From: Mucilaginibacter arboris
Lineage (GTDB): Bacteria; Bacteroidota; Bacteroidia; Sphingobacteriales; Sphingobacteriaceae
Assembly (NCBI RefSeq): GCF_009754915.1
Contig: NZ_WPIK01000010.1
Span: 1 to 64,000 of the forward strand
Direction of reading: 5' to 3'
Length of the DNA stretch: 64,000 nucleotides
The position numbers were made by a program, and so were the translations under genes. Positions 2,238 to 14,657 of this stretch are shown in pieces. Below the pieces are notes generated by a model. That model was not told the DNA's origin. It saw only the letters and a program-made list of their open reading frames with translations, and did no database searches. Each line of letters opens with the position of its first letter. Positions within the stretch are counted from its first letter, which is position 1.

Positions 2238-2776
2238 TTAAGGATTGATATGATAACGGTCCATTAAATCAAGCAGCACGCCATTTGTCCAGCCAAAGCC
2301 ATCTTGCAAAGGATATTCGCCGCCGCCAGCGTTTAAATTTGCATCTACTACATTGTATTTTTCCATTAATTTTCCGGTTTGTTTTAAAAGACGCACGTTA
2401 ATATTGATTCATCTTTCGGCAATTTCCCTGGCTAAATTTTTCTGCTGATATTTTTCCAATCCGTCAATAGCAATATATTCTAAAGGTGTCCAGGCATTTG
2501 GCAAATCCCATTGCTGTCCGCTGCGGTTAACGGTAGTTACCAAACCGCCTGTTTTTAAAAATGTGCTTTTTAATTTCTGCGCCACGCTTTCGGCCTGTTT
2601 TTTTGTAGCAACTTCAAATTCTAAAGGAAACGTACCGGCAAGCGTTTCAACAGGAGAGGTTTGTTGCAGCTTCCAGTTATAATCCAGGAACCATCCGGTT
2701 TTCTCATTCCAGCAATATTTTAAAATGGCTTTTTTGTGCTGTTCTTATCGTCTGTAAAAATTGCTGCCGATATTGC
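2238..2776 (-). pseudogene. trehalase (GH37) C-terminal pseudogene
   Basis: Translation of the minus strand gives, in one frame, KKAILKYCWNEKTGWFLDYN, then QQWDLPNAWTPLEYI, then ARREI-like sequence ending AEIAER, and finally [17 protein letters not shown]. QWDxPxxW and [17 protein letters not shown] are the two trehalase family signatures. The frame is broken by a TGA at 2409-2411 where the family has Trp, and by a one-base frameshift near 2745, upstream of which the reading (GQYRQQFLQTI) continues in another frame. The N-terminal two thirds are missing; the remnant begins right at the stop codon of the DUF983 gene, so a deletion joined them. Too broken to make trehalase. Confidence 0.85.
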
Positions 2777-2779
2777 CCG

Positions 2780-3205
2780 TTATTTTAATTGTCCTTCATT
2801 TTGATGATAAGTAGGCAAGGGTTTAATTTCAGGATGATATTTAACCCCTCTGGGCGTTAACCAATACAAAAGCATTACCCTGGAATAGCGAAAGTTAAAA
2901 GGCGATAAAATAACTGAAACGCCCAAAATAAGGAAAATGTAGAGCCATGGAGAACTGGTATTATGCGTAAAAGTATAAATGGCAATTACTGCCGCTACCA
3001 TTTCGGCTACATTTAAAGCATAGCTGGCAAACATCGACACATAAAAATAACCAGGCTCCTGCTCAAATACAAAGCCGCAATAAGGGCAACTTTTGTTCAT
3101 CTTTTGGGTATGAAAACCATACATGCTATTGGCAAACATATTTCCCTTGCGGCAGCGCGGACATTTAGCATGGGCCATTGCGTAAGCTTTAGAAACCTTT
3201 TCCAT
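2780..3205 (-). CDS. DUF983 family membrane protein
   Basis: 141 residues. Two CxxC pairs at the N-terminus (CPRCRKGNMF and CPYCGFVF) form a zinc-ribbon-like knuckle, followed by the EPGYFYVSMFASYALN block typical of DUF983 and two predicted membrane helices (about residues 63-82 and 88-105). Function of the family is not established. It starts five bases after the stop of the AraC-type regulator on the same strand, so the two are probably co-transcribed. Its stop abuts the trehalase pseudogene. Family call is confident; role is unknown. Confidence 0.85.
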   Translation of the reverse strand: MEKVSKAYAMAHAKCPRCRKGNMFANSMYGFHTQKMNKSCPYCGFVFEQEPGYFYVSMFASYALNVAEMVAAVIAIYTFTHNTSSPWLYIFLILGVSVILSPFNFRYSRVMLLYWLTPRGVKYHPEIKPLPTYHQNEGQLK

Positions 3206-3210
3206 TATAT

Positions 3211-4122
3211 TTATAAATTAAAGTTCTGTGGATAATCGTATTTATAATTGTGGTCAATACTCTTTTTAAACACCTCCGGTGTAATACCAGTTTGCTTTTT
3301 AAAGAATTTTGTAAAGTAGGAGTTATCTGAAAAATTAAGCTGATACGCAATTTCAGAAATACTTAATTCGGCATTAATTAACAAGCGCTTTGCTTCCAGT
3401 AAAACACGGTCGCGTATTAATTCGCCTGCAGATTTTCCCGCAAAATCTTTACAAAGCGCATTTAAATGATTGGGCGTTACGTAAAGCAAATCTGCATATT
3501 CTTTAGGCAGCTTCAAATCAGTAAAATGTTTATTAATCAGCTTCTGAAAATTTTTCAATAGCAAATGGCTTTGTTTGGGCTGTTTTTTTAAGGTTGAATC
3601 TGAAGTTGTTCTGGAAATAGAAATGAATAATTCCAGCAGCAAAGAACGGATCATATCTTTATACGATGCTTCTTTTTGCTGATATTCTAACAAAATCTGT
3701 TCAAAAAGCCGAATAGCATTTTGCTTATTTTTATCTGATAAAAGAAGTACTTCATCTTCGGCCATTCCGCTAAAAAAAGAGAAATATTCCAGATAAGCAG
3801 GGTTTAATAATAAAGACTGAAAAAACTGATCCGAAAAATTAATGATGTAACCATCAATGTTTCCTGCAAAATTCCAGGTATGTACCTGGCCAGGAACCAT
3901 AAAATAAATCTGGCCAGCTTCTACAGGAAATCTTTTAAAGTCGATATCATGGGTCCCAGTCCCTGAAGTAAACATGACCAAATGATAAAAAGAATGCCGG
4001 TGTGGAAAACGCAGGTTTTGGTGATGATGCAAATAAGCAGCGAAACGATCTGTCAGAATATCTTCCTGATCTGGTTTTTCTGCTGATAATGTGCAGATAT
4101 CGTACACTGGTATTTGTTTCAT
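3211..4122 (-). CDS. AraC family transcriptional regulator
   Basis: 303 residues. The N-terminal half is cupin-like (HRHSFYHLVMFTSGTGTHDIDF, then GQIYFMVPGQVHTWNF), the usual ligand-binding module. The C-terminal about 100 residues carry the two helix-turn-helix motifs, including LSISEIAYQLNFSDNSYFTKFFKKQTGITPEVFK, the AraC signature. It lies just upstream of the DUF983 gene, which it may control together with itself. The divergent neighbour is a TonB-receptor remnant, so its former target may have been that lost receptor; this is inference from position only. A TACTTTTG box lies only eight bases before the ATG, which would give a very short leader. Confidence 0.9.
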   Translation of the reverse strand: MKQIPVYDICTLSAEKPDQEDILTDRFAAYLHHHQNLRFPHRHSFYHLVMFTSGTGTHDIDFKRFPVEAGQIYFMVPGQVHTWNFAGNIDGYIINFSDQFFQSLLLNPAYLEYFSFFSGMAEDEVLLLSDKNKQNAIRLFEQILLEYQQKEASYKDMIRSLLLELFISISRTTSDSTLKKQPKQSHLLLKNFQKLINKHFTDLKLPKEYADLLYVTPNHLNALCKDFAGKSAGELIRDRVLLEAKRLLINAELSISEIAYQLNFSDNSYFTKFFKKQTGITPEVFKKSIDHNYKYDYPQNFNL

Positions 4123-11750: not shown

Positions 11751-12743
11751 ATGAAAAAAAGTAGTTTTAAAACTCGAAAAGCCTGTTTGTTTGTTTGTTT
11801 TATCATCTGTGCTTTAAATGTAAAAGCCCAGCAGGAGGTACAGTTTAGTCAATATATATTTAATGGCTTATACATTAACCCGGCTGCCGCCGGTGCTAAA
11901 GAAGACTTTTACGTACATAGTTTTTACCGTTCGCAATGGACCGGAGTTACCGGTGCGCCGCAAAGCTTTTCTGTTGCTGCAGATGGCACAATAAACGATG
12001 AAAAAGTAGGACTGGGCATTTTACTTGCTAAAGATAAAATAGGTGCCCAAAACAGTTTGGCAGCTTATGCTAATTATGCTTATCGTTTGCAAGTGGGCGG
12101 AAGCGGAAACCAGCGTTTGTCGTTCGGCCTGGGTGCAGGATTGGTGCAATCCGGGATTGATGGTTCTAAGCTGAATGCAGGGCAGGACGGGGATAATGTA
12201 ATACCGGTAGGTTACCAAAGCACTATTTTGCCCGATGCACGTGCTGGTGTATTATACACTTCCGAAAGTTTTTTTGCCGGTTTTTCTGCCGATAACCTGG
12301 TTGCTAAATATATGAACCGTGATAAAAGCTTGACCGTTCCCATTCCTAACCCTCACTTTTACTTGACTGCCGGAACAGTTTTATCTTTGAATGATGATAC
12401 CCGCATCAAGCCATCTTTTTTACTCAAAAATGCTTCCGGTACAGCTACTTCGTTAGATTTAAACACTTTTTTAATATTGGGCGACCGGTTTTGGATTGGC
12501 GGAACTTACCGTACCAGTTTAAAACTCTTGTCAAACTCTGCCTACAGTAGCAGCTTTCAAAATGCCAGTGCCGTGGTTGCACAGATAGAATTTTTTGCTA
12601 CCAGTAAACTGCGCATTGGTTATGCTTTCGATTATTCGATGTCGGCCTTTAGCGGTTTTGGCAACGGTTCCCACGAGTTATCGCTTGGTATTTATCTAAC
12701 TAAAAAAGGCACTCAGAACTTTGCTACCAGCAGCTATTTTTAG
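11751..12743 (+). CDS. PorP/SprF family type IX secretion outer-membrane protein
   Basis: 330 residues. Signal peptide to VKAQ (about residue 26), then the family-typical opening QEVQFSQYIFNGLYINPAAAGAKEDFYVHSFYRSQWTGVTGAPQSFSVAADG, followed by a beta-barrel of alternating strands ending in the aromatic LSLGIYL segment. PorP/SprF proteins are outer-membrane partners that hold or secrete specific type B adhesins; the gene just upstream encodes such an adhesin, so they probably act as a pair. Two-gene operon 57 bases apart with a stem-loop in between. A strong motif hairpin follows the stop. Confidence 0.92.
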   Translation: MKKSSFKTRKACLFVCFIICALNVKAQQEVQFSQYIFNGLYINPAAAGAKEDFYVHSFYRSQWTGVTGAPQSFSVAADGTINDEKVGLGILLAKDKIGAQNSLAAYANYAYRLQVGGSGNQRLSFGLGAGLVQSGIDGSKLNAGQDGDNVIPVGYQSTILPDARAGVLYTSESFFAGFSADNLVAKYMNRDKSLTVPIPNPHFYLTAGTVLSLNDDTRIKPSFLLKNASGTATSLDLNTFLILGDRFWIGGTYRTSLKLLSNSAYSSSFQNASAVVAQIEFFATSKLRIGYAFDYSMSAFSGFGNGSHELSLGIYLTKKGTQNFATSSYF

Positions 12744-12745
12744 GG

Positions 12746-12777
12746 GATAAAAGAAGTATGGCAATGCTTCTTTTATC
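12746..12777 (+). terminator. hairpin of two inverted motif copies after the PorP/SprF gene
   Basis: GATAAAAGAAGTAT (12746-12759) and ATGCTTCTTTTATC (12764-12777) form a 14-bp stem with one G-T pair and a four-base loop; an A-tract (CCTAAAAA) follows. Inverted uptake sequences serve as terminators in Pasteurellaceae and Neisseriaceae; the analogous use here is inference. Confidence 0.6.
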
Positions 12778-12894: not shown

Positions 12895-12902
12895 TAAATT
12901 TG
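12895..12902 (+). promoter_or_regulatory. candidate -7 box TAAATTTG before the retropepsin pair
   Basis: TAnnTTTG match 19 bases before the ATG at 12922. Confidence 0.45.
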
Positions 12903-12921: not shown

Positions 12922-13167
12922 ATGAATGCGGATTTCCTAACTTTTGAACAACTTAAACAGTTATATCCAAATGAATGGATATTATTGGGCAATCCTCAAA
13001 TGCAAAATACAACTGTTTTAGGCGGAACGGTTCTTTATCATAGTAAGGATAAAAAAGAGGTTTGTTACATTGGCCGTGACAAAACAAAAGACTTTTTAAA
13101 AGTGACAATTGCTTTTGCCGGTGACTTAAAACAAGCAAGAAAAATTGGAGTTTTAAGGCGTTTATGA
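12922..13167 (+). CDS. small protein coupled to a retropepsin-like protease
   Basis: 81 residues beginning MNADFLTFEQLKQLYPNEWILLGNP and continuing with GTVLYHSKDKKEVCYIG. I recall similar short proteins (F-E-x-L-K-x-x-x-PNEWVLL ... G-x-VLYHSKD) encoded just before small aspartyl proteases, mainly in cyanobacteria and Bacteroidota, but their function is not known to me. Its stop codon overlaps the next start (ATGA, 4 bases), so translation is coupled. It has its own -7-like box upstream. The flanks are a motif hairpin and a non-coding stretch, so the pair is a self-contained insertion-like unit. Confidence 0.65.
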   Translation: MNADFLTFEQLKQLYPNEWILLGNPQMQNTTVLGGTVLYHSKDKKEVCYIGRDKTKDFLKVTIAFAGDLKQARKIGVLRRL

Positions 13168-13556
13168 ACAAATTTATTTTTGACCGTAAAACAAATGAAG
13201 ACGTAATTATAGTAAACGCTGTTATAGAAGGCAAATACGAATTTAGGCTTGCATTGGATACAGCCGCAACACATACCACTATAGATAGTAATGTTTTATA
13301 TTTTTCTGGTTATGAACTAAAAGACAGTAAAGGCGAAAAGGAAATTGAAACTTCAAACGGAATTATAATTATTGAAATATATCAAATTGAAGTATTAAAT
13401 TCTTTAGGTATTAACAAGACAAACTTTGAAGTTCAGGTTTATGATTTTTTAGCTCATGGTATTCTATCTGATTATGATGGTGTTATTGGATTGAATTTTT
13501 TACAAGACAATAAAGTTTGTATAGATTTTAAAAATAGTGAAATTGTAATTGATTAA
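13164..13556 (+). CDS. retropepsin-like aspartic protease
   Basis: 130 residues, about the length of one retropepsin monomer. It has the active-site block ALDTAATHTTID (Asp at about residue 32; Gly of the usual DTGA replaced by Ala) and, near the C-terminus, GVIGLNFLQ, matching the second conserved GxxGxxFL strand of single-domain aspartyl proteases. Such proteins dimerise to build one active site. It overlaps the preceding small gene by four bases. The substrate is unknown; the partner may be an inhibitor, substrate or adaptor. The catalytic Asp is present, so activity is plausible. Confidence 0.78.
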   Translation: MNKFIFDRKTNEDVIIVNAVIEGKYEFRLALDTAATHTTIDSNVLYFSGYELKDSKGEKEIETSNGIIIIEIYQIEVLNSLGINKTNFEVQVYDFLAHGILSDYDGVIGLNFLQDNKVCIDFKNSEIVID

Positions 13557-13689
13557 CAATTGTTACGTTTCATACCAAAACCTATACTTTTAGGTTTTCT
13601 ACTTGTCTGAAATGTAAATAACACAATTAAAATTTCTCTTCTGGCGAGCCGAAATAGTTAGCCATGATAAAACTTCTTCTTCCAAAACA

Positions 13690-13713
13690 ATGCTTCTTTT
13701 ATCCTAACAAAAT
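13690..13713 (-). repeat. motif copy ATGCTTCTTTTATCC plus TAACAAAAT
   Basis: Exact core, A-tract interrupted by one C; lies between the protease gene and fdhD. Confidence 0.75.
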
Positions 13714-13787: not shown

Positions 13788-14657
13788 ATGCCGAGAACAT
13801 CAGTTACACCAGTTACTATTACTAAGGTTAATGAAAAGCAAATCATCACCATAAAAGATTTTTTAGCAGCAGAAGAACCGTTGGAAATCCGCCTTGGTTA
13901 TGGTCCTGCTGAACATCGTCAGCAAAAAAGCATTTCGGTAACCATGCGTACGCCTGGAAATGATTTTGAACTGGCTATTGGTTTTTTATTCACCGAAGGA
14001 ATCATTGAAAATATTGCACAAGTTGCTTCTATTAAACATTGTAATGGTTTGCACGAAAATGTAGTCCGTGTAGAATTGATTGAAGGCCTTGAATTGGATA
14101 TGGGCAAACTGGAACGCAACTTTTACACAACTTCCAGTTGCGGCGTTTGCGGAAAATCATCAATTGATGCGGTAAAAACAGTATGCCGATTACCGGAAAA
14201 CATACAGGACGATGCTGTTTTTTCTTCGGAAGTTATTTATCGTTTGCCCGGTCTGCTCCGCCAAAATCAATCTGTATTTAACTCTACCGGTGGGTTACAC
14301 GGCTGTGCGCTTTTTAATCCCGAAGGAAATTTAATGCTTGCAAGGGAAGATGTTGGCCGGCACAATGCCTTGGATAAATTAATTGGTGCAACCTTGCAGC
14401 AAAGCCTGTTTCCGTTAAATAAATACCTTTTGCTATTAAGCGGAAGGGCGAGTTTTGAACTGATCCAGAAAGCCTATATGGCAGGTATAAAAATTGTGGC
14501 TGCTGTTGGTGCGCCTTCCAGCCTGGCTGTGCAAATGGCTGCTGATGCTGGTATTACGCTAATTGGTTTTTTACGCGGAGAAAAATTTAACATTTACTGC
14601 GGAGAACAAAGGATTAGCTTAAAAGGTTATCAAAAAGAAGTTACTGCTTATCATTAA
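13788..14657 (+). CDS. fdhD: FdhD sulfurtransferase for molybdoenzymes
   Basis: 289 residues, normal family length. FdhD carries sulfur from a cysteine desulfurase to the molybdenum cofactor so that formate-dehydrogenase-type enzymes become active. The essential CxxC is Cys118/Cys121 in TSSCGVCGKSS. Other family blocks are present: GNDFELAIGFLFTEGII, FNSTGGLHGCALF, AREDVGRHNALDK and LLSGRASFELIQKAYMAGI. It opens a three-gene operon with a DUF7009 gene and a YdeP-type molybdoenzyme, the obvious client. ATG start is near the conserved N-terminus. Confidence 0.95.
   Translation: MPRTSVTPVTITKVNEKQIITIKDFLAAEEPLEIRLGYGPAEHRQQKSISVTMRTPGNDFELAIGFLFTEGIIENIAQVASIKHCNGLHENVVRVELIEGLELDMGKLERNFYTTSSCGVCGKSSIDAVKTVCRLPENIQDDAVFSSEVIYRLPGLLRQNQSVFNSTGGLHGCALFNPEGNLMLAREDVGRHNALDKLIGATLQQSLFPLNKYLLLLSGRASFELIQKAYMAGIKIVAAVGAPSSLAVQMAADAGITLIGFLRGEKFNIYCGEQRISLKGYQKEVTAYH

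Follow-up and report, generated by a model that had tools for sequence, protein, structure and literature searches.

The locus and its surroundings

The window, i.e. the whole stretch of 64,000 nucleotides of Mucilaginibacter arboris DNA analyzed here, harbors two small genes on the forward strand, denoted P1 and P2. P1 (12922..13167, +) is an open reading frame (ORF) for a protein of 81 aa with the motifs PNEWILL and YHSKD, and P2 (13164..13556, +) is an ORF for a single-domain retropepsin-like protein of 130 aa with the stretch LDTAATHTTID. The stop of P1 and the start of P2 overlap in the sequence ATGA (13164..13167, +). This layout had been put forward from the DNA alone (the original prediction): the overlap coordinates proved exact, the 81-residue ORF with both motifs is present, and for the one-domain protein with DTAAT the ORF, the Pfam profiles, and the predicted fold agree. 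The overlap is also the commonest arrangement among relatives, 39 of the 53 loci that show a P2 motif having the 4-base offset (the script took a wrong start for several of the other 14).

The pair was described as solitary, and it does stand by itself: the PorP/SprF gene before it stops at 12743, and the next gene, FdhD/NarQ, begins at 13788. The host genome (4.16 Mb) holds a single copy of P1. In a genome of the same genus (G002), the pair is found at the equivalent position, again flanked by these two genes, P1 being short there and P2 devoid of its first ~60 residues. The claim of a promoter-like box of its own also stood: the box TAnnTTTG, here TAAATTTG (12895..12902, +), lies 27 nt before the P1 start and fits the promoter box consensus of Bacteroidota. 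It occurs at most 70 bp upstream in 47/75 copies, versus a mean of 2.6 and a maximum of 9 in single-base shuffles, and 42 of the 47 matches are positioned 25-33 nt before the P1 start.

Motif copies flanking the pair had been reported as well. They are real but belong to a genome-wide repeat unrelated to the pair: the host genome contains 675 exact copies of the 13-mer AATGCTTCTTTTA versus 1 of the reversed pattern, which rules out the flanking motif as part of the system. The repeat AATGCTTCTTTTATC and its variants are found at 44 places in the window with at most two mismatches, including 12746-12777 and 13689-13703, and past the PorP/SprF gene, two of these copies make up a hairpin.

Distribution of the pair

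A scan of named genomes with two P1 peptide patterns, KDKKEVC among them, yielded 74 loci, nearly all labeled Bacteroidota; the set includes the cyanobacterium Aliterella, and some titles lack a phylum name. Since KDKKEVC served as a scan pattern, its conservation is partly a product of selection by the search. Some of the record titles (e.g. Bacteroides fragilis, Porphyromonas) are bin names of metagenome-assembled genomes (MAGs) and may be wrong. A full-length P2 ORF directly downstream of P1 is present in 46 of the 74 loci by a first rule, and both genes are intact in 55 of 82 copies by a profile (HMM) rule, so that the pair is conserved and not a chance arrangement.

The pair is rare and patchy. 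P1 matches were obtained in 4/301 genomes of the window's family and in 12/274 genomes of a second family. Convincing P2 matches came from three genomes of a draw of 301, the weak matches in 10 of 13 genomes (E 7e-5 to 8e-4, frames of 166-501 aa) not being counted. A draw of 395 genomes across the phylum gave two P2 matches, one from the window's genome itself and a distant one from G549. The scan with the narrow alignment A1 did not pick up G549, in which a distant P1 sits beside P2, and four weak partial matches of that scan outside the window genome (E 9e-4 to 0.009, frames of 598-1032 aa) were ignored. Three of five carrier genomes examined hold two to four P1 copies.

Spread by plasmids or phages was considered and rejected. 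Among plasmids, tblastn searches with the window P1, the P1 and P2 of locus L072, and the P1 of locus L097 found nothing; the same holds for phages searched with the window P1 and the L072 P2, and no relative came up in IMG/VR scans with alignments A1 and A4. Five plasmid records with generic retropepsins of less than 60% identity were retrieved by the distant P2 of L097. One gene on from the L097 pair (2747-3303), genes resembling the DUF5615 and DUF433 toxin-antitoxin genes were noted by eye.

The retropepsin-like protein P2

P2 is retropepsin-like by profile family and by predicted fold. It exceeds the Pfam cut-offs of PF13975 (30.5 bits, cut-off 28.2) and PF13650 (30.0 bits, cut-off 24.3), which together with PF08284 are its only Pfam matches at E<=1, and matches TIGR02281 below the cut-off (E 0.0029). 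Its AlphaFold2 model reaches a mean pLDDT of 91.5. In Foldseek comparisons, the model resembles the Rickettsia protease APRc (5c9f; E 7.2e-7, TM ~0.70, identity <20%) and, among the matches listed, many HIV-1 proteases (E <3e-5). No relative of P2 was recognized by sequence among solved structures at E<=10.

The window P2 carries D-T-A in place of the D-T/S-G catalytic motif, within the DTAAT of residues 32-36 (13257..13271, +), and because this one position of the catalytic motif is changed, P2 is named 'retropepsin-like'. The stretch GVIGLNF (residues 106-112; 13479..13499, +) corresponds to the second retropepsin motif (hydrophobic-hydrophobic-Gly). D32, T33, G106, and G109 are invariant in the 32-row P2 alignment, in both clades. 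Across 46 pairs, the third motif position is Ala in 17 (D-T-A) and Gly in 29 (D-T-G), a comparison that left out the intact pair of L044 owing to a wrong P1 start. D-T-A marks one clade, the sister clade having DTGAT.

The exchange of the usual Gly for Ala in all 17 pairs of the clade could mean that P2 is a pseudo- or altered protease there, serving as a binding domain in a module that binds rather than cuts. This is highly improbable: the aspartate, the threonine, and both glycines of the second motif are unchanged in either clade, pairs from both have a low dN/dS for P2, and gene organization is no different in the DTG sister clade.

The partner protein P1

The structural model of P1 has a mean pLDDT of 85.1, three of the five models being far lower. 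Residues 6-65 are predicted to form a compact alpha/beta core, which includes two helices. The C-terminal tail (66-81) is predicted with low confidence, yet its stretch 73-81 is conserved. R73 is invariant, G76, I/V77, and R80 are nearly so, and with a mean entropy of 0.88 bits the stretch 73-81 is conserved to much the same degree as the folded stretch 14-28 (0.81).

The window P1 has no Pfam domain at E<=1, and no DNA-binding domain was recognized. A Foldseek comparison of its predicted fold with solved structures returned nothing at E <0.001, and the sole row of a VIA-align comparison was that of a designed repeat protein, with Z 3.2 and an rmsd of 2.7 over 42 residues. A weak or missing fold match is no demonstration of a new fold. 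Assignment of P1 to DUF5678 (PF18929) was rejected, the window P1 having no match at E<=1; two P1 relatives match this family weakly and below the cut-off (E 0.098 and 0.14).

At L098, a single ORF (1447-2052) combines an N-terminal DUF5678 match with a C-terminal retropepsin-like domain that matches the PADLOC profile PDC-M08B. The ORF preceding this fusion (603-1412) is, judged by eye, retropepsin-like too.

Relation to the defense candidate PDC-M08 and gene neighborhood

All 32 P2 proteins of alignment A4 match PDC-M08B, the retropepsin-like component of the PADLOC phage defense candidate PDC-M08, at E<=0.001 (window P2: E 1.9e-6). The small component, PDC-M08A, is matched weakly by 11/34 P1 proteins (best E 0.0031), the other 23 of the 34 showing no match at E<=0.1; where shown, the matched stretches cover 15-27 of the 86 profile positions. 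The window P1 has no PADLOC family at E<=1, and the P1 proteins of L124-L126 do not match PDC-M08A. The pair of L097, from another family of the phylum and with the same ATGA overlap, matches both profiles (PDC-M08A, 3.4e-5; PDC-M08B, 2.7e-11). Because the window P1 fails the PDC-M08A profile, the pair is called a relative and not a member of PDC-M08.

According to PMC12988326, PADLOC candidates of this kind (PDCs) go back to the 'guilt-by-embedding' preprint of Payne et al. 2024 and have for the most part not been validated by experiment. A literature search brought up neither an experiment on PDC-M08 nor a paper naming it, the source preprint lying outside the scope of that search. It found no paper combining retropepsin and toxin-antitoxin, and among the matches listed for retropepsin and defense none contains the word 'retropepsin'.

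Of the 142 neighbors picked, 139 were aligned and compared with PADLOC, giving matches to 119 families; no defense family recurs among the 25 of these that were listed, the most frequent having three members. The listed families thus speak neither for nor against a defense island around the pair. YoeB matches occurred in four of the 139 neighbors, by eye those of L050 and of L058, L059, and L066, the last three representing one shared neighborhood.

Co-occurrence and decay of the two genes

Both profiles were applied to 274 genomes of one family. Fourteen P2 copies were found in 10 genomes, after three of 13 genomes (L120-L122, frames of 401-415 aa) had been dropped as weak. P1 lies directly upstream of P2 in 13/13 testable copies, two of which have an internal stop and nine of which are also among the 74 loci found through P1; the 14th (L123) is cut by a contig end. 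Co-occurrence analysis of the two families, proposed as a check of the module, therefore came out in its favor, with no P2 lacking P1.

The 82 copies comprise 55 with both genes intact, 21 with intact P1 and a broken or missing P2, and six with both genes broken, whereas intact P2 with a broken P1 occurs in none of the 82; L097 and L137 were classified by hand, and the near-identical L058 and L059 were counted separately. Frequent occurrence of either gene alone had been named as the observation that would speak against a module. It holds for P1, which lacks a functional P2 in 21/82 copies, and does not for P2, alone in 0/13 testable ones.

A P2 fragment detectable by HMM is kept in 13 of the 21 copies with intact P1 and no working P2, and many of the losses therefore look recent. 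At L049 and L055, a further two of the 21, tblastn detects 22-27 remaining P2 residues. Similarly, the P1 of G738 (on the same contig as L064) is accompanied by a P2 fragment only, and a P1 of G710 by a 22-residue match to the P2 end. For breaks falling in proportion to gene length, the occurrence of 21/21 in P2 has p ~4e-5, and for the 15 copies with a remnant p ~7e-4. Frameshifts in MAGs may be sequencing errors, from which P1 and P2 should suffer alike. As the 74 loci were found through P1, the set is biased against broken P1, and the lopsided decay is supportive of an antitoxin-like P1 but, in a P1-anchored set, not decisive. The pattern would be expected of an antitoxin next to a liability, toxicity not being proved thereby. 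It is read here as P2 being a liability or dispensable and not being kept without P1.

These counts bear on two other explanations. P1 might be an adaptor or activator that brings a substrate to P2 or switches P2 on, comparable to RimB with RimK. Its location upstream of P2 and the co-inheritance of the two are compatible with such a role, as are, according to PMC11957791, the involvement of protein factors with other bacterial A2 peptidases and the stimulation of RimK by RimB. An adaptor should vanish as fast as its protease, yet P1 outlives P2 by 21 to 0, and the 25 most frequent of the 165 Pfam families matched by neighbors include none of the ATP-grasp kind. An adaptor is thus considered rather unlikely.

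Alternatively, P1 persisting alone could mean that it has its own job. P2 would then be the protease that processes P1, e.g. by cutting its tail; the conserved, low-confidence tail of the model could be the cleavage site. Retention of P1 without a working P2 in 21/82 copies accords with this, and dN/dS of the L031 P1 to its nearest relative is 0.04, the change being unassigned to a branch. For copies with broken P2, dN/dS of P1 is 0.04-0.40 in 14 listed rows, some of the nearest relatives being unsuitable for the comparison. The apparent recency of many losses, given the remnants in 13/21, and the patchiness of P1 (4/301 and 12/274 genomes), unlike a housekeeping protein, make this explanation improbable.

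Some individual copies show further rearrangements. At L095 (2998-3219), a deletion has created one reading frame that runs from P1 into the active-site stretch of P2 (KDKKEVCYLG-LDTAATHTTIDSN). A 7-kb contig (G696:C127) contains two P1 copies without P2 (L102, L107), one of them frameshifted, next to ORFs that by eye resemble a minimal nucleotidyltransferase and nuclease-like proteins.

Selection, co-inheritance, and transfer as a unit

Both P1 and P2 are under strong purifying selection, with dN/dS of 0.02-0.17 in close pairs where computable (dS of the window P1 is saturated). Mirror-tree comparison of P1 and P2 gave r 0.81, a value equaled by 0/2000 permutations, and 0.82 and 0.89 within the clades. 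The difference between D-T-A and D-T-G corresponds to one change on each tree, and this split coincides with the P1 tail types GI/VL and TGI/VF (17 versus 29) with no exception. Because adjacent genes share their history, matching trees indicate co-inheritance without partner exchange and not contact between the proteins. At L045, an insertion of two residues as in the DTG clade sits in the middle of P1, but the P1 tail and P2 are those of the DTA clade.

DNA similarity between loci usually ends ~100 bp or less from the P1 start and, on the other side, close to the P2 stop. Six locus pairs with common neighbors depart from this and share more than 120 bp. From these limits, the moving unit is concluded to consist of the promoter and the two genes. 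The P2 sequences of L053 and L071 are ~95% identical, although the MAGs are labeled as different families, which suggests horizontal transfer, provided that the bin labels, which may be wrong, are correct. For the window copy, there is no indication of recent mobility.

Integron-like arrays around some relatives

The pair of L027 sits between two copies of a ~200 nt repeat, with a third copy in the locus and a fourth on the contig, and a tyrosine recombinase gene (421 aa) precedes the array. Matches to a 198-nt copy, fragments included, number 26 in the genome of L027, 27 in that of L063, 14 in that of L028, and five in G696; eight other genomes tried gave no match. The repeat has a variable stretch at its start ending in AAC and CGTT at its end, and the sequence starting at GTT is the complement of that leading up to AAC in the following copy. 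Complementary ends with at least 8 matching bases were found in 8/10 successive copy pairs with available ends versus 14/186 non-successive combinations; the two failing pairs are 3.4 and 3.8 kb apart, and one fitting pair skips a fragment. This complementarity corresponds to the R'/R'' rule of integron attC sites.

The L063 pair lies between shortened copies of the L027 repeat, whose ends were read by eye; it fails an automatic end test, which 3/47 loci (L071, L027, and L037) passed with a score of at least 7 versus 0.4% of swapped controls. The window copy, with an end-complementarity score of 1, has no attC-like flanks with complementary ends. Inverted repeats between upstream and downstream flanks exceeded the 99% control at L027 and L073 only, of 47 loci. 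Folding of one repeat with flank as single-stranded DNA was unexceptional (z 0.54; 140/200 shuffles as good), the ends pairing in the model. As L027 and L063 lie between attC-like sites, transfer of the pair in cassette form is concluded for at least some hosts.

An IntI integrase beside the L027 array was considered and rejected (163 bits to TIGR02249, cut-off 265); the best match of the recombinase is NF040815, below the cut-off. A TIGR02249 scan produced matches in 11/11 genomes, none over the cut-off, and 4/14 control genomes matched too. Arrays were noted at L027 2709-5164 and on G896:C126, G744:C98, and G896:C62, all from one family, with some bins labeled Chitinophagaceae. On two of the array contigs, attC-like repeats stand in line with a tyrosine recombinase of ~420 aa below the IntI cut-off. 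For Bacteroidetes proper, the IntegronFinder 2.0 paper mentions one complete integron, that of Salinibacter ruber.

Such arrays around two loci, the patchy occurrence, multiple copies in some genomes, frequent decay, and unrelated neighbors would also fit a selfish cassette of no benefit to the host that is kept by addiction or chance transfer only. The strong purifying selection on both genes speaks against it, though addiction alone could cause that, and a purely selfish cassette is regarded as quite improbable.

Proposed function

The original prediction of a toxin-antitoxin-like or regulated-protease module is partly supported, namely by the promoter box, by the co-occurrence and joint transfer of the two genes, and by their lopsided decay. 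The pair is tentatively interpreted as a small mobile module, distantly related to PDC-M08, that acts in the manner of toxin-antitoxin or abortive-infection pairs, an interpretation that comes close to an even call. In this module, P1 would be made first and its translation coupled to that of P2 by the ATGA overlap. P2 probably forms a homodimer, as retropepsins do. Because of the gene order, the co-occurrence, and the decay pattern, P1 is supposed to bind P2 and to keep it off, probably via the conserved tail R73-x-I-G-I/V-L/F-x-R, which could occupy the substrate cleft or the dimer interface of P2. A trigger, e.g. phage infection or loss of P1, would free the protease, and released P2 may cleave a cellular or phage target. 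The most likely use would be defense against phages or other mobile DNA, or stabilization of the carrier cassette.

A more specific version is doubtful, though a real possibility: an HIV-protease-like toxin of a toxin-antitoxin or abortive-infection system, held by a flexible tail and spread as a single cassette, in some hosts via integron-like arrays. Few bacterial retropepsins have been characterized so far, and a mobile pair whose protease is unseen without its partner lends itself to a direct and inexpensive test for a toxin or immune-effector role of HIV-fold proteases in bacteria.

Comparison with known systems

Rickettsia APRc (5c9f) and the retroviral proteases have the single-domain retropepsin fold, as predicted for P2. 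In contrast to them, P2 has DTA instead of D-T/S-G and forms a pair with P1. According to PMC8649778, APRc is a conserved protein of rickettsiae with a possible action on surface proteins.

RimB and RloA of Pseudomonas are bacterial retropepsin-like proteins as well and are encoded in operons with partner proteins, as described in PMC11957791 and PMC12239564. Their partners include ATP-grasp proteins, whereas the window pair is flanked by PorP/SprF and FdhD. RloA is there assigned a signal peptide and another Pfam family than those matched by P2, and the window P2 has neither the Pfam family of RimB/RloA nor an ATP-grasp operon partner. RimB removes glutamates from RpsF and stimulates RimK, and known bacterial A2 peptidases involve other protein factors, as stated in PMC11957791.

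Closer in organization are type II toxin-antitoxin systems. These consist of two small overlapping genes with their own promoter, the small partner coming first, and are transferred as a unit. P1 and P2 resemble them as small co-inherited neighbors with a promoter box, in which P1 comes first and outlasts P2, and, as expected of the toxin of such systems, 0/13 testable P2 copies in the 274 genomes lack P1. The pair differs in that a protease would be an unusual toxin and in that P1 has no recognized DNA-binding domain.

The nearest counterpart is PDC-M08, likewise a two-gene unit (A and B) of a retropepsin-like B and a small A (86-position profile). A and B are adjacent, and so are P1 and P2 in the window and its relatives. 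For the role originally called unknown, PADLOC thus lists a related pair as a candidate. The P1-P2 pairs point to a large Bacteroidota family, kin of PDC-M08, that the present PDC-M08A profile mostly misses.
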